Source of the DNA: a virus
Reading direction: 5' to 3' (one strand)
IMG/VR virus record: IMGVR_UViG_3300021185_003136
Span: 1-44,847 of that record
Length of the DNA: 44,847 nt
A program made the position numbers and the translations under genes. The notes under the pieces are model-generated. The model searched no databases, was not told the DNA's origin, and saw only the letters and a program-made list of their open reading frames with translations. Position 1 is the first letter of the stretch. Each line of letters begins with the position of its first letter. Below, in pieces: positions 9,988-35,154 of this stretch.

Positions 9988-10547
9988 TGCCTAGGCCAGT
10001 TTATACTCCACCAGAAAAGATACAATCTAGTTTATATACATCTGGTAAAGAATGGATGTTCTTGGATACTAATAAAGAGCATATTGGATTATATCATAAA
10101 TATCCAAATGGCGCAGTATATTCAGAAGCCAATTTTGATGAGTTCAGTCAAGAGCTAGTATCTTATGCCCCGGCAATTGAAACCGATTTTGGTGGAATAT
10201 ATTATAATTTAACTCAGAAAAGATTTGATAAATATATTGAGCCAGAATATTACCAGATAATACCAACTGATTCAGATTATGAAAAAGCAAATATTACTCG
10301 ATATTTTGTACAACAACGCAACAACCTATCACAGATATTTGAAATTGATTCAGAATCATATACCAAGGTAAATAACAAAAACCAGGTAGGGATAGATAAA
10401 GGCCGATATCAAAAAATTGCAATTAATTGGTCTATATCTGGGCCAATTGATGATGTGCGAGAAGCTAACCGCCGAGTAATAGCCAACTCCGGAGTTTCTG
10501 AATTATCCCAATATCTCACAAATCTTATTGAATTTTACAAACAGTAA
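9987..10547 (+). CDS. Baseplate-associated virion protein, function unknown
   Basis: A 186-residue protein starting with a Pro-rich arm (MPRPVYTPPEKIQSSLYTSG) and a Tyr/Trp-rich first half (KEWMFLDTNKEHIGLYHKYP). The second half is helical and includes ITRYFVQQRNNLSQIFEID and a C-terminal LSQYLTNLIEFYKQ. I have the impression of similar proteins next to hub genes in other phages but cannot name a family. It is translationally coupled to the hub gene (TAATG) and is the last gene of the tail block, so it is probably a baseplate component. Confidence 0.65.
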   Translation: MPRPVYTPPEKIQSSLYTSGKEWMFLDTNKEHIGLYHKYPNGAVYSEANFDEFSQELVSYAPAIETDFGGIYYNLTQKRFDKYIEPEYYQIIPTDSDYEKANITRYFVQQRNNLSQIFEIDSESYTKVNNKNQVGIDKGRYQKIAINWSISGPIDDVREANRRVIANSGVSELSQYLTNLIEFYKQ

Positions 10548-10553
10548 ATTGCA

Positions 10554-10583
10554 TTTGGTAATATGAAATATTTTTCTTATATT
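10554..10583 (+). promoter_or_regulatory. TTTGGTA-type promoter driving the family A polymerase gene
   Basis: TTTGGTA (10554-10560), a 12-base spacer, then TTTCTTATATT (10573-10583). Spacer length and both boxes agree with six other copies in the window. The -10-like TATATT ends seven bases before the ATG at 10591, so transcription should begin at or next to the start codon. Confidence 0.75.
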
Positions 10584-10590
10584 GCTATAC

Positions 10591-11940
10591 ATGCAGATAA
10601 TCGAAGATGAAATAGAGTTACAAAGAGTATTAATATCATTAAAAGCTGGAGCATCATTCTGGATACCAATTTATTCAGATCCATTCCAGCATTATATGAA
10701 TAATCGTATTAGTTTTATATACATATATTCAATTGCAGATGATATTGATTACATATTACCTTTCAATCATATGGACTGTATAAACCTCAATACCGAACGT
10801 TTACAGGACCTTACTAGTAGTCATGATATATATGTCTTAGCTAAGAAACGGTTTGCTCATTTCAATGCTAATAAATGTTATGATGCGGATATGGTTGCAT
10901 GGTGGCAGACTCACCGAATGTTGCCACTAAATGAAACAAATACTGCTGCTCATGATGTATGGAATCGATGGTGGCATAATGAAACAAATATATACGACTG
11001 GTTGCCAATAACATGCCATATAGATCGATGCATTGCAATGCGTATAAAATTTATGGAATCATATGCAACATTTGAAAAGACAGATAAATTTGAAGCATAT
11101 GAACAAATGATTACAGATAATTTATATGCAATTGAAAATTCTGGATTACAGGTAAATCATGCAAAATTTCTAGAAAAATTTAAATCAAATGGCATTCATA
11201 ATCATAAAGCGTATTCTGAATATAACATGTATACAACTACCGGCCGGCCTTCTAATAAATTTGGAGGCGTAAATTACGCGGCTTTGAATAAAGAAGATGG
11301 TTGCCGCGAATCATTTGTAAGCCGTTGGGAGAAAGGTATGTTATTGGAAATGGACTTTGATGCATATCACCCACGCCTAATAGCAGATATTATAGGATAC
11401 GATTTGCCAGAAGGCTCTATACATGAATATTTTGGTAAACAATATTTTGGAAAGGAAGAGTTATCTGAATCTGAATATGAAGATTCTAAAAAAATTACAT
11501 TCCGGTTATTATATGGTGGTATAGATAAAGACTTTGAAACAATACCATTTTTTGGTAAGGTCAAAGAATTTATAAAGGTGTTATGGGCTAAATTCAAAAA
11601 GAATGGATATGTGGTTACTCCGTATTTTAAACGGCCATTATATGCTAAACATTTACATGATATGAATCCTAACAAATTGTTTAACTATTTGTTACAGGCA
11701 TCAGAAACAGAAAACAATTTACATGTGATAAACGATGTCAATGCATTGATATCAGAATATAATTCAAAATTGATATTATATACATATGATTCATTGCTAT
11801 TTGACTTTGATTTACGTGATAGTAAAGAGTTAATGATAAAAATAAAAAATGTAATGTCGCGCTCAGGCAAATATCCAGTTAAAATCAAAGCCGGGGTAAA
11901 TTATCATACTATGTCCGACATGACTTCTAAAATTGTTTAA
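10591..11940 (+). CDS. Divergent family A DNA polymerase, exonuclease-dead
   Basis: A 449-residue protein with the full order of PolA-family motifs. These are TTTGRPSN (about 216-223), motif A DFDAYHPRLIAD (D255), motif B KKITFRLLYGG (K300, F304, Y308), GYVVTPYFKRPLY, LFNYLLQASETE, and motif C LYTYDSLLF (D400). The two metal-binding Asp residues are present. Differences from E. coli Pol I are His for the motif A steric-gate Glu, Tyr for Arg754, and Y-D-S for H-D-E in motif C. The first 150 residues look like a decayed 3'-5' exonuclease fold whose D-x-E is replaced by P-I-Y. I chose ATG 10591 over an in-frame TTG at 10582, which lies inside the promoter. The start has no Shine-Dalgarno element. 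The phage also carries a family B replicase at 25729. Confidence 0.8.
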   Translation: MQIIEDEIELQRVLISLKAGASFWIPIYSDPFQHYMNNRISFIYIYSIADDIDYILPFNHMDCINLNTERLQDLTSSHDIYVLAKKRFAHFNANKCYDADMVAWWQTHRMLPLNETNTAAHDVWNRWWHNETNIYDWLPITCHIDRCIAMRIKFMESYATFEKTDKFEAYEQMITDNLYAIENSGLQVNHAKFLEKFKSNGIHNHKAYSEYNMYTTTGRPSNKFGGVNYAALNKEDGCRESFVSRWEKGMLLEMDFDAYHPRLIADIIGYDLPEGSIHEYFGKQYFGKEELSESEYEDSKKITFRLLYGGIDKDFETIPFFGKVKEFIKVLWAKFKKNGYVVTPYFKRPLYAKHLHDMNPNKLFNYLLQASETENNLHVINDVNALISEYNSKLILYTYDSLLFDFDLRDSKELMIKIKNVMSRSGKYPVKIKAGVNYHTMSDMTSKIV

Positions 11941-14100: not shown

Positions 14101-14865
14101 ATGGCAATTAATTTAGACGCGATTAAATCGAAGCTCAATCAATTACAATCAACCGGCGCTCGCCGAGACAATCTATGGAAACCTGAACCAGGTAAACAAG
14201 TAGTAAGAATTGTACCTTATCAACATGATAGAGATAATCCATTTCGAGAGCTTTATTTTCATTACAATTTAGGAAAGAAAAACTACTTATCACCGGTAAC
14301 AAATGGAAAGCCGGATCCGGTAGTAGAATTTTGTGAAAAATTGAAAGCATCTGGTAATTCTGATGAATGGAAATTAGGTAAACAAATGGAGCCTAAGATG
14401 AGAACATATGTGCCTGTTATTGTGAGAGGTAAAGAGTCTGAAGGCGTTAAGATGTGGGGCTTTGGTAAGACAGTTTACCAAGAGTTATTAGGATTTATAA
14501 CAGACCCAGATTATGGCGATATTACAGATCCAAGTGGTGGTAGAGATATTGTAGTAGAGTTTACTCCTGCAGAAGGCCCGGGCCAATATCCTAAAACGTC
14601 GATTCGTGTAAAGCCTAATGTTACTTTAATGACAGAAGATAAAAATATTGCTGAACGTATAGCGAAACAGCAACCTGATTTATCGGTAATCTTTAAAGAA
14701 CCATCATATGATGATCTTAAAGCAGCATTAGAAACGTATCTGAACCCAGAAGGTGAGTCAGAAACAGAAACAGTTACAAAACAAGCAACTCCAGAACCGG
14801 CGCCAGCTGGTGTAAACAAAGTAGATGATGTATCTGCTGCGTTTGATGAGTTGTTTAACGATTAA
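14101..14865 (+). CDS. Single-stranded DNA-binding protein (T4 gp32-like)
   Basis: A 254-residue protein that coats single-stranded DNA during replication and recombination. The N-terminal basic segment (LDAIKSKLNQLQS), the W-x-P-x-PGKQVVRIVPY strand and FRELYFHYNL are characteristic of gp32-type proteins of T4-like phages. The C-terminus is a flexible, acidic tail ending in DDVSAAFDELFND, the usual docking tail for replication partners. The His/Cys zinc ligands of T4 gp32 are not evident: only one Cys is near the expected place, so this form probably folds without zinc. T4 gp32 is 301 residues. The gene leads an operon with uvsX, a FEN nuclease and the helicase. Confidence 0.9.
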   Translation: MAINLDAIKSKLNQLQSTGARRDNLWKPEPGKQVVRIVPYQHDRDNPFRELYFHYNLGKKNYLSPVTNGKPDPVVEFCEKLKASGNSDEWKLGKQMEPKMRTYVPVIVRGKESEGVKMWGFGKTVYQELLGFITDPDYGDITDPSGGRDIVVEFTPAEGPGQYPKTSIRVKPNVTLMTEDKNIAERIAKQQPDLSVIFKEPSYDDLKAALETYLNPEGESETETVTKQATPEPAPAGVNKVDDVSAAFDELFND

Positions 14866-14875
14866 AAGGTTATAA

Positions 14876-16015
14876 ATGGCAAAATCTAAAAGTGAATTAG
14901 CAGATTCCCTGGCTACAGAGTTAGCGGATTCTTTAAATAAAAAGTTTAAAAATACGGGATATCAAACCGCATTCTTCTTGGATGGTGATACAAAGGCACC
15001 GAGTGAAGTTCGTGGCTGGGTTGGTAGCGGTTCATCGATGCTTGATCTTGCAATTTCAAATCGTAAAGAAGGCGGCTTCCCGGTTGGTCGAATATCTGAA
15101 ATTACAGGACTCGAAGCATCTGGTAAATCATTATTAGCAGCACATGCATTAGCAAATTGCCAGAAAGAAGGTGGCTTAGCCGTTTATATTGATACCGAGA
15201 ATGCAATTAGTAGAGAGTTTCTAGAAGCAATTGGACTTGATCTTGAAAAGATGTTATATGTTCCATTAGAAACAATTGAAGATATTTTTGAGGCAATTGA
15301 AAGTATAGTTGTAAAAATACGAGAATCTAATAAAGATCGCTTAGTTACAATTGTAGTAGATTCAGTAATGGGAGCTTCAACAAAAATTGAAATGGCTAAG
15401 GAATTTGATAAAGATGGTTATGCGACTAGTAAAGCTATTATTTTATCAAAAGGTATGCGAAAACTTACTAACATGATTGGTCGTGAAAAGATTTGTTTAA
15501 TATTTACAAATCAATTAAGGACTAGATTGGGAGTAGCATTTGGCGATCCATATACTACCTCTGGTGGTAAAGCTATTCCATTCCATGCCTCGGTACGGTT
15601 ACGATTAAAATCAGTTGGTCAAATCAAAGTCAAGAAGGACGGTGTCGATCAAGCAATCGGAATCAAGACTAGATGCCAAGTGGTGAAAAACAGAATGGGG
15701 CCTCCATTAAAAACTGTTGATTATGATATCTATTTTGAATCAGGTATTGATAATTACGGCGGATGGCTTAATATTATGAAACAATTTAAGTTAGTAAAAA
15801 CTGCAGGAGCGTGGTATACATTTACTAGACAGGACGGAACTGAAGTTAAATTCTTATCAAAAGATTTTGAGAAGAAACTAGAAGAGCTAGATGGTCTTAA
15901 GGATGAAATATATACGCAGATCTGTGATGCTTATATACTTAAATATAAACCAGGCGAAGATTTTGGAATAGACGATGTTACGATATCAGAAGAATTTGTT
16001 AACGAAGAAAGCTAA
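14876..16015 (+). CDS. uvsX: UvsX/RecA-type recombinase
   Basis: A 379-residue RecA-superfamily ATPase that forms filaments on single-stranded DNA and catalyses strand exchange for recombination-dependent replication. It has a Walker A motif GLEASGKS (78-85), catalytic Glu in YIDTENA (E108) and Walker B LVTIVVDSVMG (157-167). A TNQLRTRLGV segment matches RecA motif and loop regions. T4 UvsX is 391 residues. It lies ten bases after the SSB gene, with AAAGGT upstream of the ATG, and its stop overlaps the start of the next gene (TAATG). SSB and UvsX work together in strand exchange, consistent with co-expression. Confidence 0.95.
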   Translation: MAKSKSELADSLATELADSLNKKFKNTGYQTAFFLDGDTKAPSEVRGWVGSGSSMLDLAISNRKEGGFPVGRISEITGLEASGKSLLAAHALANCQKEGGLAVYIDTENAISREFLEAIGLDLEKMLYVPLETIEDIFEAIESIVVKIRESNKDRLVTIVVDSVMGASTKIEMAKEFDKDGYATSKAIILSKGMRKLTNMIGREKICLIFTNQLRTRLGVAFGDPYTTSGGKAIPFHASVRLRLKSVGQIKVKKDGVDQAIGIKTRCQVVKNRMGPPLKTVDYDIYFESGIDNYGGWLNIMKQFKLVKTAGAWYTFTRQDGTEVKFLSKDFEKKLEELDGLKDEIYTQICDAYILKYKPGEDFGIDDVTISEEFVNEES

Positions 16016-17064
16016 TGGATTCTAAATATCTTAACATACTACGAGAAATGGAAAAGGATCGTGAGCAAGGAACGGTGTCAAGTAAAGATAGCCATCTTTT
16101 AATTATTGACGGGTTGAATACATTCATTAGAGTGTTTTCAGCCGTTCCGGCTCTAAATGATGATGGGCAACATATTGGAGGAGTAACGGGCTTTTTGCGG
16201 TCCGTTGCTGCCAATATCCGTCAACTTAAACCTACTAGATGTGTAATTGTATTTGATGGTAAAGGCGGCTCAAAACGCCGTAAGGCAATATATCCAAATT
16301 ATAAAGCTAACCGGGCAAATAAAACAGCATTTAATAGATATCAGGAATTTGCATCATTAGAAGACGAATCGGCATCGATGAAAAAACAATTTGGTCGATT
16401 AGCTCAATATCTTAATTGTTTGCCAATTACAACGTTATCGGTCGATAACGTCGAAGCAGATGACATAATGGCATATATAGCTAATGAATTATATACAGAA
16501 AAGGAAAACCGAGCGACTATTGTATCAACGGATAGAGATTTTTTACAATTAGTAAATGATCGTATTTCAGTATGGAGTCCTATAAAAAAGAAGTTATATA
16601 CTCCAAGTCTAATGAAAGAAGAATTTGGATTTAGTCCTGAGAATTACTTGTTATACAGAACGTTTATTGGTGATAAATCGGATAATATTCCTGGTATAAA
16701 AGGTGTTGGAACAAAAAGTTTAATTAAACATTTTCCTATAATATGCGAAGACAGAGAAATTTCGGTCGATGAAATAGTCGAATATGCAGATAATGTTGAT
16801 AAGAAATATAAAGTACATGAAACTGTATTGCAGAATAAAGAAACGCTGCAGTTAAATTATGACCTTATGCAATTGAAAGAAGTTAATATACACGGCGGTG
16901 CAAAAATGTTAACTCTAGATAAAGTTAAAGGTAAAGTCGATCGCACAAATACATATGAGTTCAAAAAAATGTTTATGGCGGATAAAATGTATACAGTAAT
17001 AAAAGATTTAGATTCTTGGTTACATAATTCATTTAATGCATTAAATGCTTACACTTCTCTTTGA
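16015..17064 (+). CDS. 5'-3' exonuclease / RNase H of the FEN family (T4 Rnh-like)
   Basis: A 349-residue flap endonuclease-type enzyme that would remove RNA primers and flaps on the lagging strand. Metal-binding acidic residues sit in the expected motifs: IIDGLNTF (D32), VFDGKGGSKRR (D81), VEADDIMAY (E147, D149, D150), STDRDF (D173, D175) and GDKSDNIPG (D220, D223). The last is followed by a helix-hairpin-helix (GIKGVGTKSL). T4 RNase H is 305 residues. The basic segment KRRKAIYPNYKANR is the helical arch region. The ATG overlaps the uvsX stop, so the two are translationally coupled. Confidence 0.92.
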   Translation: MDSKYLNILREMEKDREQGTVSSKDSHLLIIDGLNTFIRVFSAVPALNDDGQHIGGVTGFLRSVAANIRQLKPTRCVIVFDGKGGSKRRKAIYPNYKANRANKTAFNRYQEFASLEDESASMKKQFGRLAQYLNCLPITTLSVDNVEADDIMAYIANELYTEKENRATIVSTDRDFLQLVNDRISVWSPIKKKLYTPSLMKEEFGFSPENYLLYRTFIGDKSDNIPGIKGVGTKSLIKHFPIICEDREISVDEIVEYADNVDKKYKVHETVLQNKETLQLNYDLMQLKEVNIHGGAKMLTLDKVKGKVDRTNTYEFKKMFMADKMYTVIKDLDSWLHNSFNALNAYTSL

Positions 17065-17088
17065 TTTTTGAAAAAAATTTATTATAAT
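17060..17088 (+). promoter_or_regulatory. Probable variant promoter before helicase gene
   Basis: TTTGATT (17060-17066), an 11-base spacer and TTTATTATAAT (17078-17088) resemble the TTTGGTA-type promoter with a one-base-shorter spacer. TATAAT ends five bases before the helicase ATG at 17094. No ribosome-binding site is visible there, so a leaderless transcript is likely if this promoter is active. Confidence 0.45.
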
Positions 17089-17093
17089 TAAGT

Positions 17094-18449
17094 ATGACAG
17101 ACAGATTAAGTTCATACGGATATGCATTTCAAGTAAAGGTTATAACTGCGTTATTAACTGATAAAAGCTTTTTACAGCAGATATCAGATATAATGGTTCC
17201 AAAATATTTTGAATCAGAAGCAAATAACTGGATAGTTGATGTAATCCTTGAATACCATAAAGAATATAAATCTTCACCTACATTAGAAGTAATGAAAGTG
17301 AAAATGGAGGATTTAGATCACGATGTTCTAAAAACTCAAGTCGTAGAACATTTAAAAGATGCGTGGCGATATACTGATGCACCTGACCTCGAATTTATCA
17401 AAGAACAGGCATTAGATTTTTGTAAAAACCAAGAAATTAAAAAAGCAATTTTATCATCGGTAGAATTACTTAAACATGGTAAGTATGAAGAAATAAAAGC
17501 TGCGGTAGATGATGCATTGAAATCTGGTGGAGATAAAGATATTGGTCATGAATATATGACTAATATAGAAGAACGTTATAGCGAAGCCGTACGCCATGTC
17601 CAAGAAACTCCATGGGAAGTAATTAATGAATTAACAGATGGTGGCTTAGGTAAAGGTGAGCTTGGTGTTATGGTAGCGCCTGCAGGTATTGGTAAATCTT
17701 GGGCTTTAATGAATATCGGAGCAAATGCAGTTAAGAAAGGAAAGACTGTATTGCATTATACATTAGAGTTGAATGAGGCATATGTAGGTTTACGATATGA
17801 CTCTGTTATAACAGGAATAGCTCAGCAGAATCTAAAACATTATATGGACGAAGTTAAAGATCAGTTATCTAAAATAGACGGTGAATTGATTATTAAACAT
17901 TATCCTACAAAATCTGTATCTGTTATGGGCATTCGATCGCATATCGAAAAATGTATAATGCAGGACAAAAAACCAGATGTAGTAATAGTGGATTATGCAG
18001 ATTTGTTAAGAGGACATGGTCAAGAAAAGCGTCATGAGTTAGAAGGTATATATGAAGATTTAAGAGGTATGGCTGGCGAATATGAAATACCTGTATGGAC
18101 CGCATCTCAGGCAAATAGATCTGCATTAGAAGAGGATGTAATTGATGCAAGTAAAGTATCTGAATCGTATGGTAAAGTGATGGTGGCAGATTTCATATTA
18201 TCATTATCTAGAAAAGTTCAAGATAAATTGGCAGGAACTGGTAGATGGCATGTTATTAAAAATAGATTTGGCCCTGATGGTATAACATTGCCAAGTAAAA
18301 TGAATACATCTAATGGACAATTTGACATATATACAGATACATCTGTTCAAGGTAAAGATACTCAAAAGGCAATGGATAATGGTAATGAATTGGCTAGACA
18401 AATGTTAGCTAGAAAGTATCAAGAAACACAAAATTCAGGTTTCGAATAA
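17094..18449 (+). CDS. Replicative DNA helicase (T4 gp41-like, DnaB family)
   Basis: A 451-residue hexameric helicase that unwinds the fork 5'-3' on the lagging strand. The N-terminal domain (1-160) is helical. The RecA-like C-terminal domain has Walker A APAGIGKS (195-202), catalytic Glu in HYTLELNE (E225), and Walker B PDVVIVDYADLL (D300). These are followed by DnaB-type motifs WTASQANRSA and SLSRK...GRWHVIKNRFGPDG. T4 gp41 is 475 residues. No primase gene is seen in the window. The start has no Shine-Dalgarno element and follows a variant promoter. A strong terminator lies 24 bases after the stop. Confidence 0.93.
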   Translation: MTDRLSSYGYAFQVKVITALLTDKSFLQQISDIMVPKYFESEANNWIVDVILEYHKEYKSSPTLEVMKVKMEDLDHDVLKTQVVEHLKDAWRYTDAPDLEFIKEQALDFCKNQEIKKAILSSVELLKHGKYEEIKAAVDDALKSGGDKDIGHEYMTNIEERYSEAVRHVQETPWEVINELTDGGLGKGELGVMVAPAGIGKSWALMNIGANAVKKGKTVLHYTLELNEAYVGLRYDSVITGIAQQNLKHYMDEVKDQLSKIDGELIIKHYPTKSVSVMGIRSHIEKCIMQDKKPDVVIVDYADLLRGHGQEKRHELEGIYEDLRGMAGEYEIPVWTASQANRSALEEDVIDASKVSESYGKVMVADFILSLSRKVQDKLAGTGRWHVIKNRFGPDGITLPSKMNTSNGQFDIYTDTSVQGKDTQKAMDNGNELARQMLARKYQETQNSGFE

Positions 18450-22557: not shown

Positions 22558-23001
22558 ATGAGCAAATTTAGAAGTTATAAAGAGTTTAGCGGTTATAGTA
22601 CAGCCTTTAGACAATGGAGAGCAGATTCGCATTGCCGATTTATACATGGGTATGCATTAAAATTTAAAGTATGGTTTGAGGGTGACTTAGATCATCGTAA
22701 TTGGGTCGTGGACTTTGGATGCTTTAAACGTAACGGTGTAAAGGATTGGTTAAAGCATCAATTTGATCATACTACGGTAGTAGCTACAGATGATCCGGAT
22801 CTACTTTTATTTCAAGATATGGCCGCAAAAGATATGATACAATTGCGTGTAATGCCTGATGTAGGTTGTGAAAAATTTGCATCTATGGTGTTTAACTATC
22901 TAGATTCTATAATTGAAAAAGAAACTGAAGGAAGAGCACGAGTATACAAAGTACAGTGTTGGGAACATAGTGAAAATATGGCAGAATATTATGGCGAATA
23001 A
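22558..23001 (+). CDS. queD: 6-carboxytetrahydropterin synthase-like protein (QueD/PTPS family)
   Basis: A 147-residue member of the PTPS/QueD family, which converts dihydroneopterin triphosphate to 6-carboxytetrahydropterin, the second step to 7-deazaguanines. The expected catalytic triad is visible: C26 in SHCRFIHGY, and D70-H71 in QFDHTT. VVDFGCFK and the closing VQCWEHSENMAEYY also match the family. The zinc site is unusual: of the three His ligands, only H30 is clearly kept. The HGH motif reads HGY, and the first ligand position appears to be F17; H25 may substitute. The last 11 bases overlap queE. The function is likely but the metal site suggests a divergent subfamily. Confidence 0.82.
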   Translation: MSKFRSYKEFSGYSTAFRQWRADSHCRFIHGYALKFKVWFEGDLDHRNWVVDFGCFKRNGVKDWLKHQFDHTTVVATDDPDLLLFQDMAAKDMIQLRVMPDVGCEKFASMVFNYLDSIIEKETEGRARVYKVQCWEHSENMAEYYGE

Positions 23002-23767
23002 GCGTATTAAAGATTATAATAAAGTACTTCCTATTAACGAGTTGTATAGATGCGTGCAATCTGAAGGAAGTCGATTTGGTAGACCAACTATTGCTATTCG
23101 CGTAACTGGTTGTACTCATAGATGTTATTTTGGTGAAGGAGGATGGTGCGATTCTTGGTATTCATCCATACATCCAGAAAAGGGTAAATACTCATTTAAC
23201 GATATTATTAAAATATATGATGAAAATCCTCATGTAAAAGAAATGATGTTAACTGGCGGATCACCTACAATGCAACCAGCATTAGTAAACGAATTAACAC
23301 ATTTTGCAAATGAAAGAAATATTATCATTACTATTGAAACTGAAGGATCTCATTTTGTTGAGACCGATTATCCTATTGATCTCATTAGCCTTAGTCCTAA
23401 GTTTAGTAATAGCGTCCCTGTTGTTGGCGCTGTTACACCAGGTGGGCAAATTGTCGACGAAAAATTTATTCACGTCCATAACAGGAAACGTTTAAATACA
23501 GATGCTATTAATCAAATGATTAGTTTTCATACAGATTATCATTATAAGCCAGTATGGGATGGTACTCTAGAAAATTTAAATGAAATAGAATCATATCGTT
23601 TAGAATTAGGAATACCTAAAAATAAGACATATATTATGCCGGCGGGTGATACGCGAGAACAATTAATTAAAATGTATCCAATGGTGTTTGAATTATGTGC
23701 CGAGCATGGTTATAACATGACAGGTAGAGATCATATCATTGCATTCGATACAGAACGATCAGTTTAA
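22991..23767 (+). CDS. queE: 7-carboxy-7-deazaguanine synthase-like radical SAM enzyme (QueE)
   Basis: A 258-residue radical SAM protein that would rearrange 6-carboxytetrahydropterin to 7-carboxy-7-deazaguanine. The N-terminal LYRCVQSEGSRFGRPTIAIR is the QueE signature for substrate binding. The cluster motif is atypical: C41-x3-C45-x7-C53 with a YFGEGGW insertion, instead of C-x3-C-x2-C. The usual TGGEP reads TGGSPTMQ (88-95). Later motifs TIETEGS and LSPKFSN fit the family. I chose ATG 22991, which overlaps the end of queD by 11 bases, because the upstream in-frame extension lies inside queD and is not QueE-like. It is followed by groES after 11 bases. Confidence 0.85.
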   Translation: MANKRIKDYNKVLPINELYRCVQSEGSRFGRPTIAIRVTGCTHRCYFGEGGWCDSWYSSIHPEKGKYSFNDIIKIYDENPHVKEMMLTGGSPTMQPALVNELTHFANERNIIITIETEGSHFVETDYPIDLISLSPKFSNSVPVVGAVTPGGQIVDEKFIHVHNRKRLNTDAINQMISFHTDYHYKPVWDGTLENLNEIESYRLELGIPKNKTYIMPAGDTREQLIKMYPMVFELCAEHGYNMTGRDHIIAFDTERSV

Positions 23768-23778
23768 AGGAAAGTTAT

Positions 23779-24075
23779 ATGAAAATGAAACCAATGGGAG
23801 ATTTTATTCTCTTAAAAAAACATGAAGGTCAAGAAACGACCAAAGCTGGTATTATTCTAACTAGTAATACTACTAATCATGCAAAGGCCGATGTAGTAGC
23901 ATGCGGTCCTGGATTATTTACTCAGACCGGCGATCGCATCCCTATTACGGTAGTGCCTGGCGATGTAGTTATGATAACCAATCAATCTGCAAAAGATCAT
24001 AATCAAATTAAATTAGATGATGAAACATATTTACTATTACGAGAATCAGATATAGTAATGGCATCGACAAATTAA
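23779..24075 (+). CDS. groES: GroES-type co-chaperonin
   Basis: A 98-residue co-chaperonin, the lid of the GroEL folding chamber, equivalent in role to T4 gp31. Family features include PMGDFILLKK at the start and the mobile loop with the GroEL-binding tripeptide I25-I26-L27 (AGIILTSNTT). VVACGPG, VPGDVVMI, and the closing DDETYLLLRESDIV follow. The host GroES usually performs this job; T4 replaces it to fold its large capsid protein. This phage also carries its own GroEL (33529), so the partners are encoded far apart, in different operons. The ribosome-binding site is AAAGGAAAG. Confidence 0.93.
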   Translation: MKMKPMGDFILLKKHEGQETTKAGIILTSNTTNHAKADVVACGPGLFTQTGDRIPITVVPGDVVMITNQSAKDHNQIKLDDETYLLLRESDIVMASTN

Positions 24076-24094
24076 GTTAATAAATAAAAGTCCA

Positions 24095-24117
24095 GATGGT
24101 GTCGTAGTTCCACCGTC
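24095..24117 (+). other. Small RNA hairpin between groES and folE
   Basis: GATGGTG (24095-24101) pairs with CACCGTC (24111-24117) over seven bases with one G-U, around a nine-base loop. No T-run follows, so it is not a classical terminator. It could be an RNA-processing site or a stabiliser of the upstream message. The stem is visible; the function is unknown. Confidence 0.4.
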
Positions 24118-24143
24118 ATAAATAAATTAAAACAAAGGATATA

Positions 24144-24824
24144 ATGTCAAAAAAGAAAAAACAAGTAACGGACATGGAAATTGCTAAACCCGGCTTCGCG
24201 AATGGATTAGCTAGTAGTACACCATTATCTGAGTCAGAAAAAGAAATGATGATTATGGATGCTGCAGATGCATTTGGTAAATTTTTAGATGCTCTTAGAT
24301 GTGATTGGAGAAATGATCCAAATTCAGATAATACACCAAAACGTGTTGCTAAAGCATATGTTAATGATCTATGGGCCGGACGATATCAAGGACCACCTTC
24401 GATTACAGGATTTCCTAGCGATGGATATGATGGTATAGTGCAAGAGAGTAACATACCATTAACTAGCATGTGTTCACATCACCATCAAACTATTACCGGT
24501 AAGGTTCATATCGCATATATAGCATCAGAACAAGGTACTGTTGTTGGGTTAAGCAAACTTAATAGAATTGTAGAATACTTTGGCCGACGAGGTGCTATTC
24601 AAGAACAATTGACAGTTGCAATACATAATGCAGTTAATCAGATATGTGAAGGTAATTTAGGCGTTGCTGTTTGTATAGACGCTGGCCATAATTGTGTATC
24701 ATGTAGAGGCGTTGGTCACCAAGGAGCATCGATGCAGACTGCTAAATTATCTGGCTCTTTTCTAGATAAGCCAGAAGCGAGAGCTGAATTTTATAAAAAT
24801 ATTGAATTATCGAGTAAAAAATAA
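24144..24824 (+). CDS. folE: GTP cyclohydrolase I (FolE type)
   Basis: A 226-residue enzyme that opens GTP to 7,8-dihydroneopterin triphosphate, the first step to folate and to 7-deazaguanines. Zinc ligands are in place: C110 and H113 (SMCSHHHQTITGK) and C184 (HNCVSCRGVGHQG). Other GCH1 signatures are NTPKRVAKAY, VGLSKLNRIVEYFGRR and IQEQLT. The N-terminal 25 residues are a non-conserved extension. AAAGGAT precedes the ATG. Together with QueD and QueE in the same gene block, the enzyme most likely feeds deazaguanine synthesis rather than folate. One base separates its stop from the phosphoribosyltransferase start. Confidence 0.95.
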   Translation: MSKKKKQVTDMEIAKPGFANGLASSTPLSESEKEMMIMDAADAFGKFLDALRCDWRNDPNSDNTPKRVAKAYVNDLWAGRYQGPPSITGFPSDGYDGIVQESNIPLTSMCSHHHQTITGKVHIAYIASEQGTVVGLSKLNRIVEYFGRRGAIQEQLTVAIHNAVNQICEGNLGVAVCIDAGHNCVSCRGVGHQGASMQTAKLSGSFLDKPEARAEFYKNIELSSKK

Positions 24825-24825
24825 T

Positions 24826-25356
24826 ATGAAAGAACGATTTAAAACCGGCATGGAAATATTAATACCAGAATATAAAATAGAGCGTAGAGTGCGCGCAATG
24901 GCACATCGTATATCAGAAGAACATAAAGCATCCGGAAATGCGTATCCTCCTGTAATTATCTGCGTACTTAATGGCGCATTCATGTTCTTTTCAGACCTTG
25001 TTAAGGATATGGGTATTGATGTGCAATTAGATTTTATTAGAGCAAAATCATATGAAGGCCAGGACAATTCCGGTGGCGTATTGATTACGAAAGATTTAGA
25101 ATTAGATCTTCAAGGAAAGCGTGTCTATATCGTTGAAGATATAATCGATACAGGCGCCACAATGATTGAAATTTTACAACGCGTTAACGACCGTATGCCA
25201 TCGGAAGTCAATATCATTACATTAGTACAACGTAAAAATGCGACGATGCCAGTTAAACATTATTGTTTTGAAATAGATAATGAATGGATCGTAGGATATG
25301 GTTTAGATGATAATTCATTGAAACGCAATTACAGAAATGTATATAAATTAAATTAG
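24826..25356 (+). CDS. hpt: Hypoxanthine/guanine phosphoribosyltransferase
   Basis: A 176-residue purine salvage enzyme that joins hypoxanthine or guanine to PRPP. The PRPP loop reads VEDIIDTGATM. VIICVLNGAFMFFSDLV, the flexible-loop region DFIRAKSYEG and the purine-binding DNEWIVGYGLDD are all typical of bacterial Hpt (about 178 residues). ATG 24826 was chosen because an in-frame upstream TTG (24802) lies inside folE. The gene is effectively fused to folE in the operon. Since FolE uses GTP, and a DNA guanine transglycosylase would release free guanine, a recycling role is attractive; this is an inference from context. Confidence 0.9.
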   Translation: MKERFKTGMEILIPEYKIERRVRAMAHRISEEHKASGNAYPPVIICVLNGAFMFFSDLVKDMGIDVQLDFIRAKSYEGQDNSGGVLITKDLELDLQGKRVYIVEDIIDTGATMIEILQRVNDRMPSEVNIITLVQRKNATMPVKHYCFEIDNEWIVGYGLDDNSLKRNYRNVYKLN

Positions 25357-25363
25357 TTATATT

Positions 25364-25555
25364 ATGAAGAAAGAGAGTTGGATGTACCCAGATACTAAAG
25401 TAAAATATCCAGATGCAAAAAAGCATCAATTAGTAAGTTTTATTAAATCTGCGGTAAGAATTTTAGGATATTGTTTTATTCCATTTAATTTGGTAGTTTC
25501 AACAATTTTACTTATATTAAGTGAAGTGGTAGGAATTATAGAAGAGCTTGTTTAA
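25364..25555 (+). CDS. Small membrane-associated phage protein
   Basis: A 63-residue protein with a polar, Lys-rich start (MKKESWMYPDTKVKYPDAKK) and a hydrophobic, probably membrane-embedded second half (about 27-60), including ILGYCFIPFNLVV and STILLILSEVVGIIEELV. I recall very similar short proteins with a GY-x-FIPFN-x-V core in many aquatic phages, with no known function. Its TAA overlaps the next ATG. A TTTGGTA-type promoter lies inside the coding region at 25489. Confidence 0.7.
   Translation: MKKESWMYPDTKVKYPDAKKHQLVSFIKSAVRILGYCFIPFNLVVSTILLILSEVVGIIEELV
25489..25518 (+). promoter_or_regulatory. TTTGGTA-type promoter inside a coding gene, upstream of DNA polymerase
   Basis: TTTGGTA (25489-25495), a 12-base spacer, TTACTTATATT (25508-25518). 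It differs by one base from the consensus in the second box and lies within the C-terminal codons of the small membrane protein gene. It would start a transcript just before the 56-residue gene and the family B polymerase. Confidence 0.6.
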
Positions 25556-25725
25556 TGTTTAAAAATTTGTTTAAGACTAAATTACAACGATTGCAAGATA
25601 AGCATAAGTTGTTACTACGCAAGTCATTTGAGGCATCTAAAACAGATAGGACTTTAAGTGACCAGTATTTATCACAAGCTAGCAAAATAGAAGATAAAAT
25701 ATTAGAAATTCAAGAAAAGTCATAA
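25555..25725 (+). CDS. 56-residue helical protein (DUF6435/Lacal_2735-like)
   Basis: This short gene starts at an ATG overlapping the previous stop (TAATG) and ends three bases before the polymerase ATG. The product is basic at the N-terminus (MFKNLFKTKLQRLQDKHKLL) and continues as two helices (LRKSFEASKTDRTLSDQYLS, then QASKIEDKILEIQEKS). The pattern of a short LFK start, a long KLxxK helix and an SDxxxxxA-x-x-I-E-x-KI second helix resembles a tiny family that I know chiefly from flavobacteria and relatives. The reading frame is well supported by packing; the family match is tentative and the function unknown. Confidence 0.6.
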   Translation: MFKNLFKTKLQRLQDKHKLLLRKSFEASKTDRTLSDQYLSQASKIEDKILEIQEKS

Positions 25726-25728
25726 CAA

Positions 25729-28209
25729 ATGTATCAAGCAGTAGCATATCATAAACGTACTAATAAAGTACATATTTGGGATGATAGAAAGGGGCATTTT
25801 ACTATCAATTATAAACCATATGCATATCGTAAAGCCACTTATGGTAACATGGTAGCATTAGATGGCCAGACAGTGCAGCGAGTAGATAATCCTGATCGCG
25901 AAGAGCGCGGATTGTATGAGGCAGACATCAATCCAGAAATGCGTACTTTAATTGACACGTATACAGATTCAGATGAGGCATCAGTAGGTCATAGAACATT
26001 GTTTATTGATATTGAGGTAGATATTGCCTCCGGATTTCCTACTCCAGAAGAAGCTCAAAATGAAGTTACTTCCATTGCAATATATGATGAGGCAGGTGAT
26101 CAAAGGCATGTATGGATATTAGATAAAGATAATGTAGTTGAAAATGTATCTAAGCCAGGATATGAAGTAGTGTCATGTAATAATGAGCATACTTTGTTAC
26201 AAAAATTCTTATACAAATATTACGAAATACAGCCTACCATTATAACCGGATGGAATATTGATTTCTTTGATATACCATATCTTTATAATCGTATGGTACA
26301 AATATTAGGAGAAGAACAGGCTAGATCATTGTCTCCTATCAAAGATGTCATTTGGTTAAAACATAGAAACAGATATCGTATATCTGGAGTATCATGTTTA
26401 GATTATATGGCATTATATAAGAACTTTACATATTCTCAAGAGTCAAGTTATTCATTGGAAGCCATATCTCAGAAGGAATTAGGTAAAGGTAAAATGAAGT
26501 ATGAGGGTACGTTAGATGACCTTATGCGTAATGACATTCAAGGTTATATTGATTATAACATGAATGATGTGGATCTGGTCTGGGAAATCGATCAAAAAAT
26601 GAAGCTGATTGATTTGGCTCGTGGTATATGTCATAAAGGCCATGTTCCATATGAAGACTTCTTATTTCCGACTAGATACTTAGATGGTGCTGCATTAACA
26701 TATATGAAGCGTATGAACATTGTATCTCCTAGCCGTCCGCCTAGGTCTAATGAAGAATTAAATTTATTAGGAGCATATGTCAAGCCACCAAATGCAGGTC
26801 GTTATAAATGGGTATATGACCTTGATTTAACATCGTTATATCCTAGTATCATCATGACACTTAATATATCACCAGAAACCAAAGTAACTAAGTTAGAAAA
26901 ATTTGACTCTAAGGCATATGTTAAGAATACCGGAACTCATTATTCAGATGAATGGAACGGTTGGGAAACATCTCAAGACTTAAGAAAATATCTAGAATCA
27001 AATAAATATTCGATAGCAGCAAATGGAGTTGTATACGATACTCAGATAAAAGGTTTCCTGCCATCTATTTTGGATAAATGGTTTAATGAGCGTGTTGAAT
27101 ATAAAAACTTAAGAAAGAAGTATGAAAAGGAAGGAGATGAAGCTAAAGCAGAATATTTTGATAGGATGCAGTTAGTGACTAAGATTCTTCTTAACTCGTT
27201 CTATGGAGTATTAGGTAACCCCAGCTTCCGATTCTTCGATCCAGATAATGCAATTGCAATTACCAGTACTGGTCAGCAATTAATTAAGTTCACAGCCGAT
27301 ATTGGTAACCAGTTTTACTTTAAAGAGTTAGGAAAAAAGAAAGATTATAATATATACATTGATACAGATTCTGTATTCTTTTCATCATTACCGCTAATAG
27401 AAAAACGGTATCCTAATTATGATATTACAGATGAGAAGTTTATGTCTGATAAGACAATTGAAATAGCAGATGAAGTTCAAGGCTTTATGAATAAATCATA
27501 TGATATATATGGTAAGAAATTTCATAATGTCGATACTCATAGATTTGATATCAAGAAAGAAAATGTTGCTAAAGCAGGATTATGGATTGCTAAGAAGCGT
27601 TATGCTCAATGGATAATTAATGTGGAAGGCCATACTGTATCAAAGCTAGACGTGAAAGGTTTGGATGTGGTGCGATCATCTTTCCCTCCTTCATTTAGAA
27701 AGTTCATGGCAGAGGTCTTAGAAGACATGTTAAATGACATTGATAAACCAGAATTAGATCAGAAGATATTAGATTTTAAAGAACATATGAAAACATTAGA
27801 ATTAATTGATGTTATGTTTCCTATTGGTGTTAAAAATATTAAAAAGTATATACGTAAAGGCGATAAGCCATTTGCGGTCCGTATGAAAGGTACTCCGGTA
27901 CATGTTAAATCTGCGCTAAATTATAATGACATGTTAAAACATCATAAAGTTAAAACTATACGTGGTATTATAAACGGCGAAAAGATTAAGTGGACATACC
28001 TTAAAAATAATTCAATGGGATTGGATACAATGGCATTGAAAGGTTATGATGATCCTAAACCAATCGCAGACTTTGTACAAGGTCATATAGATTATGATAA
28101 AGTATTTAAATCTGCATTTGCAAATAAGTTAAACGATTTTTATAGTGCCATGAATTGGGGATTGATCCCAGAAAATAATAATTTAGGAAAGTTTTTTGCA
28201 TTCGGCTAA
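25729..28209 (+). CDS. Replicative family B DNA polymerase (T4 gp43-like)
   Basis: An 826-residue replicase with proofreading. The exonuclease domain has Exo I FIDIEVD (D94, E96), Exo II GWNIDFFDIPYL (D178/D181 region) and Exo III YNMNDVDLV (D280 region). The polymerase domain has motif A YDLDLTSLYPSI (D366), motif B KILLNSFYGVLGN (485-497), and motif C IYIDTDSVFF (D545, D547). All catalytic Asp residues are present. The C-terminus ends in a hydrophobic GKFFAFG, probably a clamp-binding tail. T4 gp43 is 898 residues. Clamp and clamp-loader genes lie downstream. It is the second DNA polymerase in the window and certainly the main one. Confidence 0.97.
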   Translation: MYQAVAYHKRTNKVHIWDDRKGHFTINYKPYAYRKATYGNMVALDGQTVQRVDNPDREERGLYEADINPEMRTLIDTYTDSDEASVGHRTLFIDIEVDIASGFPTPEEAQNEVTSIAIYDEAGDQRHVWILDKDNVVENVSKPGYEVVSCNNEHTLLQKFLYKYYEIQPTIITGWNIDFFDIPYLYNRMVQILGEEQARSLSPIKDVIWLKHRNRYRISGVSCLDYMALYKNFTYSQESSYSLEAISQKELGKGKMKYEGTLDDLMRNDIQGYIDYNMNDVDLVWEIDQKMKLIDLARGICHKGHVPYEDFLFPTRYLDGAALTYMKRMNIVSPSRPPRSNEELNLLGAYVKPPNAGRYKWVYDLDLTSLYPSIIMTLNISPETKVTKLEKFDSKAYVKNTGTHYSDEWNGWETSQDLRKYLESNKYSIAANGVVYDTQIKGFLPSILDKWFNERVEYKNLRKKYEKEGDEAKAEYFDRMQLVTKILLNSFYGVLGNPSFRFFDPDNAIAITSTGQQLIKFTADIGNQFYFKELGKKKDYNIYIDTDSVFFSSLPLIEKRYPNYDITDEKFMSDKTIEIADEVQGFMNKSYDIYGKKFHNVDTHRFDIKKENVAKAGLWIAKKRYAQWIINVEGHTVSKLDVKGLDVVRSSFPPSFRKFMAEVLEDMLNDIDKPELDQKILDFKEHMKTLELIDVMFPIGVKNIKKYIRKGDKPFAVRMKGTPVHVKSALNYNDMLKHHKVKTIRGIINGEKIKWTYLKNNSMGLDTMALKGYDDPKPIADFVQGHIDYDKVFKSAFANKLNDFYSAMNWGLIPENNNLGKFFAFG

Positions 28210-28231
28210 ATATTCAAAAAAAAGGAATATT

Positions 28232-28480
28232 ATGGAAACATTAATTACAGTTTTAAGTACCATTGGGGTTGGGGCGTTATCGTTTGCAGTTTCAAGAGTG
28301 ATAAGGTTGGCCAGACAGGTTAATGAGTTGAAAGCACGCCAAGAGAATAGCGATATAGCTCTTGAAAATTCATGTAGAGATTTCTTCGGAAATTTAGATG
28401 GATTAACTTCTTCTATAGATAGAAGATTTGATAAAGTATGGGCAGATGTTCATATTTTAAATAGTAAAAAAAGTAAATAA
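28232..28480 (+). CDS. Small membrane-anchored coiled-coil protein
   Basis: An 82-residue protein with one N-terminal transmembrane helix (about residues 3-24, ITVLSTIGVGALSFAVSRVI) and a charged helical remainder (VNELKARQENSDIALENSC), ending in a Lys-rich tail. ATG 28232 is supported by AAAGGAAT; an in-frame TTG upstream lies within the polymerase gene. The topology suggests an inner-membrane anchor with a cytoplasmic coiled coil. I do not recognise a family. It is the last gene before the next promoter. Confidence 0.65.
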   Translation: METLITVLSTIGVGALSFAVSRVIRLARQVNELKARQENSDIALENSCRDFFGNLDGLTSSIDRRFDKVWADVHILNSKKSK

Positions 28481-28496
28481 CATTTAATTAAAAAGA

Positions 28497-28526
28497 TTTG
28501 GTTGTTTGCAAAAACTTTCTTATATT
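28497..28526 (+). promoter_or_regulatory. TTTGGTA-type promoter driving the GT-DpdA-clamp operon
   Basis: TTTGGTT (28497-28503), a 12-base spacer and TTTCTTATATT (28516-28526). Only one base differs from the consensus. The leader is short (about 12 bases, A-rich), with no strong ribosome-binding site before ATG 28545. It heads a tightly packed unit running through the transglycosylase to the clamp loader. Confidence 0.7.
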
Positions 28527-28544
28527 AATAAAAAATAAAAAGAT

Positions 28545-28964
28545 ATGTACGGAAAAAGTTACTGGTATGGTAAAGAGGTAGAAGGCAGATTGTCTGATAT
28601 CGAAACGGTTTTTGTTAGAGGTCAATTACCTGAAAATTATAAAGAATATCCTCATGTATATTTTACAATTGAATATATTGAAATGTGTTGTACTCATGGT
28701 AATTGGGATGATATTCATAATATCCTTGAAACAAAACAGTATGTGACTATTGAGGCCAATTCAAAAACGATGTCAAAAGTCCCGATGTCTATTTTCAATA
28801 GAGTTCATGTGATATATAGAATTCAAGATGATAATTTAGCTAAACTAAAAAATACAGATACGTTATCAGTAGATGCTGGTTGGTATAGAGTACACCAAAT
28901 TACAAAATGTAATATGATGGAAATTAACCCAGATGATTACAAATTTGATAGAACAGAAGAGTAG
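28545..28964 (+). CDS. Unknown protein, first gene of the GT-DpdA operon
   Basis: A 139-residue protein with mixed alpha/beta composition, containing VYFTIEYIEMCCTHGNWDD, then ILETKQYVTIEAN and FNRVHVIYRIQDDNL, with a closing acidic tail. It contains three Cys residues (two adjacent) and several His, but no clear metal motif. The stop is followed one base later by the ATG of the glycosyltransferase, so expression is linked to that gene and to the guanine transglycosylase. I recognise no family. Because of its position it is the best unknown candidate for an accessory role in the base-modification system. Confidence 0.6.
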   Translation: MYGKSYWYGKEVEGRLSDIETVFVRGQLPENYKEYPHVYFTIEYIEMCCTHGNWDDIHNILETKQYVTIEANSKTMSKVPMSIFNRVHVIYRIQDDNLAKLKNTDTLSVDAGWYRVHQITKCNMMEINPDDYKFDRTEE

Positions 28965-28965
28965 T

Positions 28966-30168
28966 ATGAAAAGAAATTTATTTTATTTTGGCCTTGAGCC
29001 TTTAAAGGCCCGATATACATACCAGTTATGTAAAGAATGGATGCCAAAGACATTTGCAGAATATCCGGATCTTAATTTTGTAGATATTGAAGGAGAGTTT
29101 GATCCAGATTGTGAAATCAAAGTAGGTGCGGTATTAGATGCAATTGGTAGAGGTAAATACTGTTTATCTCAATGTCAAAACTTCTTAAACCTACTGTATA
29201 ATGACAAAGTACAGGATGGTGATATAATATTCTTGCAAGACTATTGGACACCAGGAGTCGAAGCCATATGGTATGCATTAGACCTGTATGGCTATAAGAA
29301 TGTGAAAGTATATACAATGTGTCATGCGCAGTCAGTTGATGAATATGATTTCACATATCCAATGCGTGATTGGATGCGTCCTTATGAATTAGGATTGGAT
29401 AAACGATTGACTGGTATATTTGTAGGAAGTACGGTTCATAAAGAACAACTTCGTGAAGCAGGATTTGAAGCTCCTATACATGTCGTATCATTACCAATAC
29501 ATTTAGAAGCTACTCATGATATATTAGAAGGATGTGCAGAATTCGATAAGAAAAATGTAATTGTATATTCATCTCGTTTAGATAAAGAAAAGAATCCTTT
29601 CTTTATGATGAGAGTAGCCAAGCAATTTTTAAATGAAAATCCAGATTATGAGTGGCATGTTACTACTTCCGGTAAATCGTTTAGAAGCATGTTACCTGGA
29701 GTCTTAGATGCAATGAATGAGTTGGCTGAAGTGCAACCTAGATTCAAATTGCTATCCGGTTTAACTAAACAAGAATATTATACCGAGTTAGCTACATGCA
29801 AAGTGCAATTTAATTCATCATTACAAGATTATGTATCATGGACAGTGATTGAGTCAACTACATTTGGTGCTGATATAGTATTTCCAGATTTTCGAAGTTT
29901 CCCAGAATTTATTGATCAAGACAGATTATATAAACCATTTGATGTACAGTCCGCGGTAGATACCATATGGGATGCTATCAATGATCCTAGAACGCATTTT
30001 GATATTGGTAATACATCTGACTTAGGTAGAAGAATGGAAGGATATATTATAGCAAATGACTATGATAAAGAACTTAATGTATGGCATGAAAAAGAATATT
30101 GTGAAGAACTGTTATGTCAGGACTTTGATAAATTAGTACAACGAACAACTCAAATGGAATTATTTTAA
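28966..30168 (+). CDS. GT-B glycosyltransferase coupled to the transglycosylase gene
   Basis: A 400-residue protein with the two-domain GT-B layout. The N-terminal domain has NLFYFGLEPLKARYTYQLC and GDIIFLQDYWTPGVEAI. The second domain starts at NVIVYSSRLDKEKNPFFMMR, typical of GT4-type enzymes, and continues with YEWHVTTSGKSF, then YTELATCKVQFNSSLQDYVS and TVIESTTFGADIVFPDFRSF for nucleotide-sugar binding. ATG 28966 follows the previous stop by one base and has AGAAGAG upstream; an ATG at 28933 lies inside the previous gene. Its TAA overlaps the ATG of the DpdA-like gene (TAATG). The substrate is unknown: DNA base, lipid or protein are all possible. Confidence 0.82.
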   Translation: MKRNLFYFGLEPLKARYTYQLCKEWMPKTFAEYPDLNFVDIEGEFDPDCEIKVGAVLDAIGRGKYCLSQCQNFLNLLYNDKVQDGDIIFLQDYWTPGVEAIWYALDLYGYKNVKVYTMCHAQSVDEYDFTYPMRDWMRPYELGLDKRLTGIFVGSTVHKEQLREAGFEAPIHVVSLPIHLEATHDILEGCAEFDKKNVIVYSSRLDKEKNPFFMMRVAKQFLNENPDYEWHVTTSGKSFRSMLPGVLDAMNELAEVQPRFKLLSGLTKQEYYTELATCKVQFNSSLQDYVSWTVIESTTFGADIVFPDFRSFPEFIDQDRLYKPFDVQSAVDTIWDAINDPRTHFDIGNTSDLGRRMEGYIIANDYDKELNVWHEKEYCEELLCQDFDKLVQRTTQMELF

Positions 30169-31352
30169 TGAAAGATTTGATTTATTACCCGTCATTATCT
30201 GCAGGAGGATGTGCAGGAGACTTCAAAAAGAATAAAGAAGTTAAGCCTGGACTTACATGTAGATTTTATGATAAAGAATTTCCAGAACCATGGAGACATC
30301 CATATTTCCTAATCACGGCCGGCCACCATTACAAATGGATGGATGCTAGAGATAGATATGGCTTAGAAGATGATGTATTAGTATTAGGAGATTCAGGAGG
30401 ATTCCAGTTAGCCACTGGCGCTATTAAATGGGATCCTGCATTTAAGAAAACTATATTTGATTGGTTAGAGACCAATTGTGATTTAGGAGTTAACTTAGAT
30501 ATTCCGCCTCGTGCAAAGTACGATGGAAAGTTTTACGAATGTATGGATATTAGTTATGATAACTTTACATATTTTGCAGATAACCAGACTGGTAAATGTA
30601 AATTTTTAAATGTTATTCAAGGTAACAATGTAGACGAGTATGAGGCCTGGTATCAAAAAATGAAAGACTTTGAATTCAATGGTTGGTGTATTGGAGGTGC
30701 TCAAAAGCGTGTTACTATGTTTATGTCGGCGTTAGTTCCTATGATTAAAAATAGAGAATTTGAAAAAGCTCGTAATCAATTTATACATGTATTGGGTATA
30801 TCAAAGATATCCGATTTCTTTATGTTGAGTTTCCTTCAAAAGATGGTAAACAAATACCATGGAGGTAGAATACAAGTATCTACAGATTCATCGTCACCTG
30901 GTTTATATCCTGTATATGGAACATATTTACATTCACCTCAATTGAGTAAAATGACCTTCACGGATTTATATTTTCCTAAAGGAGAAAATTTACCTTATAA
31001 TGCAGATGACCTAGTTCCTAATCCGTTAGGACATCCGGTATCGGAAGGATTTACTTTTGGTGACGTGTCAAATTATAAAGGCGATGTTACAATGAAAATG
31101 ACATTAAATAATTTATTTGTTTTTAACGATACAGTTAAACAAGTAGAAGAAATTGTGAAATGTCATAACGAGTTGTTGCAAACAGTAGTTCCGAGAGACT
31201 TCTATTCAGTGTTAATGAGCATGGAAGAGATGTTTAAGGATCCAGATAAGGCTATACATATCTATAACAAGAATAGACAGTTATATGATAGGTTTGGTGG
31301 TAGTACAAGAGATTTAGTAAATAATGAAGTGTTTAATCAATTCTTCGAATAA
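30168..31352 (+). CDS. dpdA: DpdA-type DNA guanine transglycosylase (TGT fold)
   Basis: A 394-residue relative of tRNA-guanine transglycosylase. TGT-barrel landmarks appear in order: LGDSGGFQ (D75), NVIQGN (148-153, TGT IVQGG), NGWCIGGAQK (171-180, TGT AIGG), HVLGIS (207-212), and STDSSSPG (D240), where TGT has its nucleophilic Asp. The C-terminal CxCxxC...H zinc site of tRNA enzymes is absent, as in phage DpdA proteins, which exchange guanine in DNA for a 7-deazaguanine. FolE, QueD and QueE genes in the window supply the precursor. It overlaps the glycosyltransferase gene (TAATG), and the sliding clamp gene follows, so modification is expressed with replication functions. Confidence 0.85.
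   Translation: MKDLIYYPSLSAGGCAGDFKKNKEVKPGLTCRFYDKEFPEPWRHPYFLITAGHHYKWMDARDRYGLEDDVLVLGDSGGFQLATGAIKWDPAFKKTIFDWLETNCDLGVNLDIPPRAKYDGKFYECMDISYDNFTYFADNQTGKCKFLNVIQGNNVDEYEAWYQKMKDFEFNGWCIGGAQKRVTMFMSALVPMIKNREFEKARNQFIHVLGISKISDFFMLSFLQKMVNKYHGGRIQVSTDSSSPGLYPVYGTYLHSPQLSKMTFTDLYFPKGENLPYNADDLVPNPLGHPVSEGFTFGDVSNYKGDVTMKMTLNNLFVFNDTVKQVEEIVKCHNELLQTVVPRDFYSVLMSMEEMFKDPDKAIHIYNKNRQLYDRFGGSTRDLVNNEVFNQFFE

Positions 31353-33519: not shown

Positions 33520-35154
<1,635 letters not shown>

Follow-up and report, generated by a model that had tools for sequence, protein, structure and literature searches.

A predicted glycosyltransferase coupled to a DpdA-type transglycosylase in QueC-less phage 7-deazaguanine gene clusters

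The gene cluster in the window

We analyzed a phage fragment of 44.8 kb, a single IMG/VR record (IMGVR_UViG_3300021185_003136) whose whole stretch of 44,847 bases is called the window below. Between positions 22558 and 31352 it carries genes for the synthesis of a 7-deazaguanine precursor, a predicted glycosyltransferase (GT) and a predicted DNA guanine transglycosylase of the DpdA type, all on the plus strand. The evidence throughout is comparative or predicted, and the counts of loci are not phylogenetically independent.

The predicted GT4-type glycosyltransferase (28966..30168, 400 aa, start set from its relatives) matches Pfam Glycos_transf_1 at 1.4e-6. Its stop codon overlaps the start codon of dpdA (TAATG). 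An AlphaFold model of the protein (pLDDT 91.8) matches the GT4 enzymes MshA and BshA, and the GT-B fold is accompanied by the R-x4-K donor site (R204, K209) and the (D/E)x7E signature (D288x7E296). The predicted activity is nucleotide-sugar-dependent transfer. The protein resembles BshA and MshA in predicted fold and in the (D/E)x7E signature, but identity is just 12-14% and those enzymes use different small-molecule acceptors (malate for BshA).

The transglycosylase gene (30168..31352) encodes 394 aa. The Pfam TGT (tRNA-guanine transglycosylase) search of the window gave no match for this protein, and it was therefore placed by structure and profile comparison; the NCBIfam DpdA model scored 16.5 bits against a cut-off of 200. 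With hhalign, the protein matched a DpdA2-like profile at 98%. Its AlphaFold model, built on an alignment of 35 diverse relatives, has a pLDDT of 90.7 and shows the (beta/alpha)8 fold of TGT enzymes. Foldseek returned the archaeal tRNA enzyme ArcTGT (1j2b, 2.7e-9), the DNA preQ0 insertase DpdA (7ui4, 1.1e-8) and also bacterial TGTs. The predicted catalytic residues D75 and D240, the aspartates of the DSGGFQ and STDSSS motifs, are invariant across the 35 relatives and align with those of DpdA2. A tRNA-type CxCxxC zinc site was found neither in this protein nor in the GT-positive relatives compared. The site is retained in the QueC-positive relatives GR7B, Voja-6, NCTB, Motura and L174, so its loss is not universal in the wider group. 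A sequence-only reading of this DNA had named a TGT-fold protein with both motifs and without the tRNA-type zinc site, and motif check and structure search bear this out. On these comparisons the protein is best described as a divergent DpdA, in a sister subfamily that is distant kin of DpdA2. In one uncultured phage a tryptophan-halogenase-family protein follows immediately after the TGT gene (L077:11275-12495).

The precursor genes lie upstream. The first encodes a QueD-like 6-carboxytetrahydropterin synthase (22558..23001, 147 aa; Pfam PTPS 4.5e-17; phrog_2389, the PHROG QueD-like family, 4.5e-36). It is followed by QueE, 7-carboxy-7-deazaguanine synthase (22991..23767, ATG at 22991, 258 aa), which matches the PHROG QueE family phrog_2076 at 7.5e-46 and has the radical-SAM cysteines as Cx3Cx7C. 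NCBIfam QueE models matched at best at 2.9e-13, the others more weakly and every one under its cut-off. Window QueE is 67% identical to that of Flavobacterium phage immuto and 61% to that of Cellulophaga phage phiST. FolE, GTP cyclohydrolase I, is encoded at 24144..24824 (Pfam 2.4e-41), and an HGPRT-type phosphoribosyltransferase at 24826..25356 (TIGR01203 1.2e-43; 148.8 bits, cut-off 150). The residues earlier assigned to FolE (C110/H113/C184) and to the QueD-like protein (C26/D70/H71) are all in place, and the call of a QueE-like radical-SAM enzyme is likewise confirmed. The pathway had also been called dispersed, which is only loosely right, as close relatives keep the fixed order queD-queE-groES-folE-hprt-(polymerase)-GT-dpdA.

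The groES gene of this order (23779..24075, Pfam Cpn10 3.3e-18) keeps its position in relatives, and we give it no part in modification. A phage-encoded GroEL is present downstream of the cluster (33529-35154). By gene content the window phage is T4-like, with genes for a sheath, UvsX, NrdA/B, a family B polymerase and a clamp loader, and it is marine. A close relative of 127 kb (L082) encodes a 981-aa protein with a Por_Secre_tail domain, used in type IX secretion sorting (14230-17175, minus strand), and this points to a Bacteroidota host. The window QueE, too, is closest to those of Flavobacterium and Cellulophaga phages.

The sequence-only reading proposed that a DpdA-type enzyme works in a pathway of 7-deazaguanine DNA modification. 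That much stands, but the account was incomplete because it overlooked the GT, whose gene overlaps dpdA and which is found in relatives as constantly as the transglycosylase. It mentioned neither the glycosyltransferase nor the phosphoribosyltransferase. The GT beside dpdA points to a further, sugar-bearing modification. We considered 5-hydroxymethylpyrimidine as its acceptor and rejected it, since a ThyA-family gene (PF00303, dCMP hydroxymethylase-like) was absent from the window, from G001-G004 and from phages BUCT-ZZ01, X1 and ACP17.

Coupling of the glycosyltransferase to DpdA

In all close relatives whose contig extends far enough, the GT gene adjoins dpdA. When viral contigs were scanned with the GT rather than DpdA as query, at least 589 relatives of one GT clade were found. 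We retrieved 80 loci, all of this clade, and took counts on the 32 that were 18 kb or longer. DpdA, QueE and a small PTPS-like protein (phrog_17812) were each present in 32/32, FolE in 31/32 and the phosphoribosyltransferase in 26/32.

The transglycosylase of phages X1, ACP17 and BUCT-ZZ01 is DpdA2-like and matches that of KVP40 and its relatives. A scan with this protein as query gave the GT in 32 of the 33 loci of at least 16 kb, with queE-prt-folE-dpdA2-PTPS-GT-queD as the typical cassette. The GT thus partners two DpdA subfamilies, and both gene orders are seen. On a tree of 57 glycosyltransferases there are 6 switches between the two subfamilies, 5 of them forced by supported branches.

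Unsupervised clustering of neighbors at 49 diverse loci gave DpdA at 49, GT at 49 (both counts partly set by the way the loci were found), small PTPS at 47, FolE at 45 and QueE at 40. QueD and the phosphoribosyltransferase also outranked all replication genes, the commonest of which was found at about 20 loci.

Isolated phages show the same association. The GT occurs together with QueE and a TGT/DpdA protein in Synechococcus phage BUCT-ZZ01, Xanthomonas phage X1, Acidovorax phage ACP17, Pseudomonas phages Paride/PA5oct and Sinorhizobium phage Phosso. The TGT and GT genes of Paride/PA5oct overlap by one base, and in Phosso the TGT is located elsewhere in the genome, away from the GT. FolE is present in all of these isolates except Paride, in which none was found within the stretch read. 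In bacterial and archaeal assemblies, a TGT/DpdA-like gene lies near the GT in 19 of 21 loci, in 2 of these on opposite strands; the bacteria include Magnetospirillum, Devosia, Shimia and Sulfitobacter. On a Sulfitobacter chromosome a YhhQ-like transporter (Vut_1, slightly under cut-off), the GT and DpdA stand in a row (L370:9354-12548).

A more distant case is Xanthomonas phage PhiXhv-15 (L097), in which Gat-QueC, a PIG-L deacetylase, a GT4 cousin and a Gfo/Idh oxidoreductase form one cluster (6654-10740). This cluster possibly serves a glycosylated, deacetylated archaeosine-type base.

Distribution of QueC and of a small PTPS-like protein

QueC (PF06508) was found neither in the window nor in the 127 kb relative. 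The earlier remark that no QueC is visible therefore holds and extends to close relatives. QueC was also absent from 5/5 GT-positive isolate genomes (156-469 kb), X1 showing a sub-threshold match only. In contrast, QueC matches over the cut-off came from 9/9 isolates that have DpdA-type genes but lack the GT, namely GR7B, Moby, pf16, KVP40, NCTB, Motura, Voja-6, 2.275.O and immuto (the NCTB and Moby matches are partial). The Fisher p value, which ignores kinship, is 0.0005 for 5 GT-positive versus 9 GT-less isolates, and 0.005 once PhiXhv, phiST and 9g are added. The QueC match of 9g lies in Gat-QueC.

About 77 GT-positive metagenomic contigs gave only partial QueC matches, of the PP-loop and roughly 50-92 residues long. 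Two DpdA-positive contigs in which no GT was detected (L340 and L174) have a QueC match. This near-exclusive pattern suggests that the GT acts on an intermediate before QueC, that is, on 7-carboxy-7-deazaguanine (CDG). It also favors the earlier suggestion that the base stops at CDG; QueC may come from the host.

The small PTPS-fold family phrog_17812 is encoded in the 127 kb relative (L082:9507-9863, minus strand) and also in L093, L095, L096 and L375-L379. It is found repeatedly in 7-deazaguanine phages in which QueC is scarce or absent, with a GT or without one. Its HRH motif is QueD-like and the catalytic cysteine is missing. Searches gave no PTPS Pfam match and no PDB match, and a weak match (90.6%) to a QueD profile. 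A 139-aa gene upstream of the window GT (28545-28964) was considered as this partner and discarded, having no similarity to the family and no Pfam match. Among isolates with the small protein but without GT, 5/6 have no QueC match; the sixth, D479, shows a partial match. Vibrio phage Bakedbeans and Chryseobacterium phage MA9V-3 encode longer proteins with this domain at the C-terminal end (L376:5212-6363, L378:5428-6309). The QueC-poor, GT-less phages L093, L377, L378 and L379 carry a mini TGT-fold-like protein beside a kinase-like gene, to which phiST adds MazG. Such a pair could exchange the base at the nucleotide level instead of in DNA.

A sugar-bearing 7-deazaguanine in DNA

CDG is the product of FolE, QueD and QueE. 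Enzymes of the TGT family swap guanine for a 7-deaza base by means of an aspartate nucleophile. From the data above we consider it probable, though by no means assured, that the window genes form a DNA-hypermodification module in which CDG is made, placed into DNA by DpdA and decorated with a sugar by the GT. FolE, QueD and QueE would together make CDG, and, because there is no QueC, CDG itself would be the base used. After replication, the DpdA-type enzyme would excise guanine through its aspartate nucleophile and put the 7-deaza base into DNA. The GT4-type enzyme would then move a sugar from a nucleotide sugar to the inserted base, most simply as a glycosyl ester on the 7-carboxylate. Recycling of the released guanine by the HGPRT-type phosphoribosyltransferase is plausible because such enzymes recur at the loci. 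The bulky base may shield phage DNA from restriction. The enzyme identities, the catalytic residues, the fixed gene coupling and the absence of QueC come from sequence or structure prediction; we infer that DNA is the substrate and CDG the base, and likewise the sugar with its linkage, the sequence of the steps, the salvage and the protection. The narrower proposal, that a DpdA and GT4 pair gives phage DNA a glycosylated 7-deazaguanine, specifically a CDG sugar ester, we hold tentatively, as a real possibility rather than an expectation.

Several observations weigh against this scheme. A glycosyl ester would be an uncommon product for a GT4 enzyme, and BshA and MshA, the closest relatives by structure, glycosylate hydroxyls. 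A comparison of GT-positive with QueC-positive DpdA proteins, confounded by ancestry, gave no new basic residue that could bind a carboxylate. The three-histidine zinc site of QueD (AAH...HGH) was not found in the window protein, which has SHC...HGY instead, a variant common to a group of phages, among them immuto, phiST, ACP17 and BUCT-ZZ01. The small PTPS-like protein lies outside the window. The exclusion between GT and QueC rests on related phages, and many of the contigs are incomplete. It is also compatible with QueC supplied by the host, and preQ0 could then remain the base; hosts often encode QueC.

This last point leads to the strongest alternative, unlikely but to be taken seriously, in which preQ0 or CDG is inserted with help from host QueC and the GT acts on this base or on something later derived from it, with no CDG ester. 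Many hosts of DpdA phages have the queuosine pathway including QueC (PMC6884629). The DpdA of phage 9g inserts preQ0 made by E. coli. The divergent GT group of PhiXhv adjoins Gat-QueC, so the link of the GT to a carboxylate is not a strict one. However, host QueC leaves the near-exclusive pattern in isolates and contigs without a reason, and a nitrile has no acceptor atom for a sugar.

It is less probable that the GT has nothing to do with the base. Many phage GT4 enzymes serve other uses and the substrate of the window GT is only predicted, so it might glycosylate material of the virion or the host surface, with plain CDG or preQ0 in the DNA; coincidence or common regulation would then explain why it lies beside dpdA. 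Against this, the coupling is seen in many phage lineages and in bacterial assemblies, with either gene order and with both DpdA subfamilies. Action of the transglycosylase on tRNA, with the pathway raising queuosine-type tRNA modification, seems very improbable. The fold is common to tRNA enzymes and the closest Foldseek match is an archaeal tRNA TGT, but the window protein has no zinc site, later queuosine enzymes were not found among the window genes scanned, and DpdA2 relatives work on phage DNA (PMC6884629, PMC12028318). In DNA of the DpdA2 phages nt-1 and 6E351A, 7-deazaguanines make up 0.1% and 15% of G, respectively (PMC6884629; PMC12028318). We give almost no credence to FolE and the QueD-like protein serving folate or pterin metabolism in an accidental assembly: FolE on its own does occur in phages for folate and the QueD zinc motif is atypical, but QueE has no role in folate synthesis and relatives keep the gene order.

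The proposed module, with CDG decorated in DNA, can be set beside known systems. It shares FolE, QueD, QueE, a TGT-fold DpdA and DNA base exchange with the preQ0 pathway of phages 9g, CAjan and nt-1/KVP40 (Hutinet et al. 2019, PMC6884629), but has no QueC or Gat-QueC in the window or the 127 kb relative, a separate DpdA subfamily distant from DpdA2, and a GT that overlaps dpdA. Phage phiST resembles the window in FolE, QueD and QueE (61% identical) without QueC, and has the small PTPS-like family of the 127 kb relative; it differs in having another mini-TGT, the adjoining kinase-like gene and MazG, and no glycosyltransferase. It is said, in 2023 work by Cui and colleagues, to carry CDG. As in T-even phages, a sugar on a modified base would be a restriction shield, but T4 places it on 5-hydroxymethylcytosine, whereas our search for a ThyA-family enzyme was negative and the acceptor we predict is a purine analogue. 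Glycosyltransferases also act on 7-deazaguanine derivatives in mannosyl- and galactosyl-queuosine and in huimycin (PMC8654956, PMC12518689, PMC7439116), but these are tRNA or a free natural product, not DNA, with other acceptor groups.

7-Deazaguanine DNA modification is a known class, of which the QueC-less, GT-coupled branch looks new. Neither a link between DpdA and a glycosyltransferase nor a glycosylated 7-deazaguanine in DNA was found in the literature searched, with key papers lying outside it. Sugar hypermodification of DNA is known on pyrimidines. If the scheme is true, it would give the first purine base in DNA known to us to carry a sugar, and a sugar-bearing guanine analogue would extend such hypermodification to purines. 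It would also account for the many phages that make 7-deazaguanine precursors but have no QueC. The module is a common one, with at least 589 contigs for one GT clade, hundreds of uncultured phages and several isolates; the sequenced isolates infect Pseudomonas aeruginosa, Acidovorax, Xanthomonas, Sinorhizobium and Synechococcus. In phages with DpdA and the GT, a guanine analogue bearing a carboxylate is probably coated with sugar. If so, type IV restriction would have a new target in this base, which would also matter for CRISPR or sequencing work on such phages.

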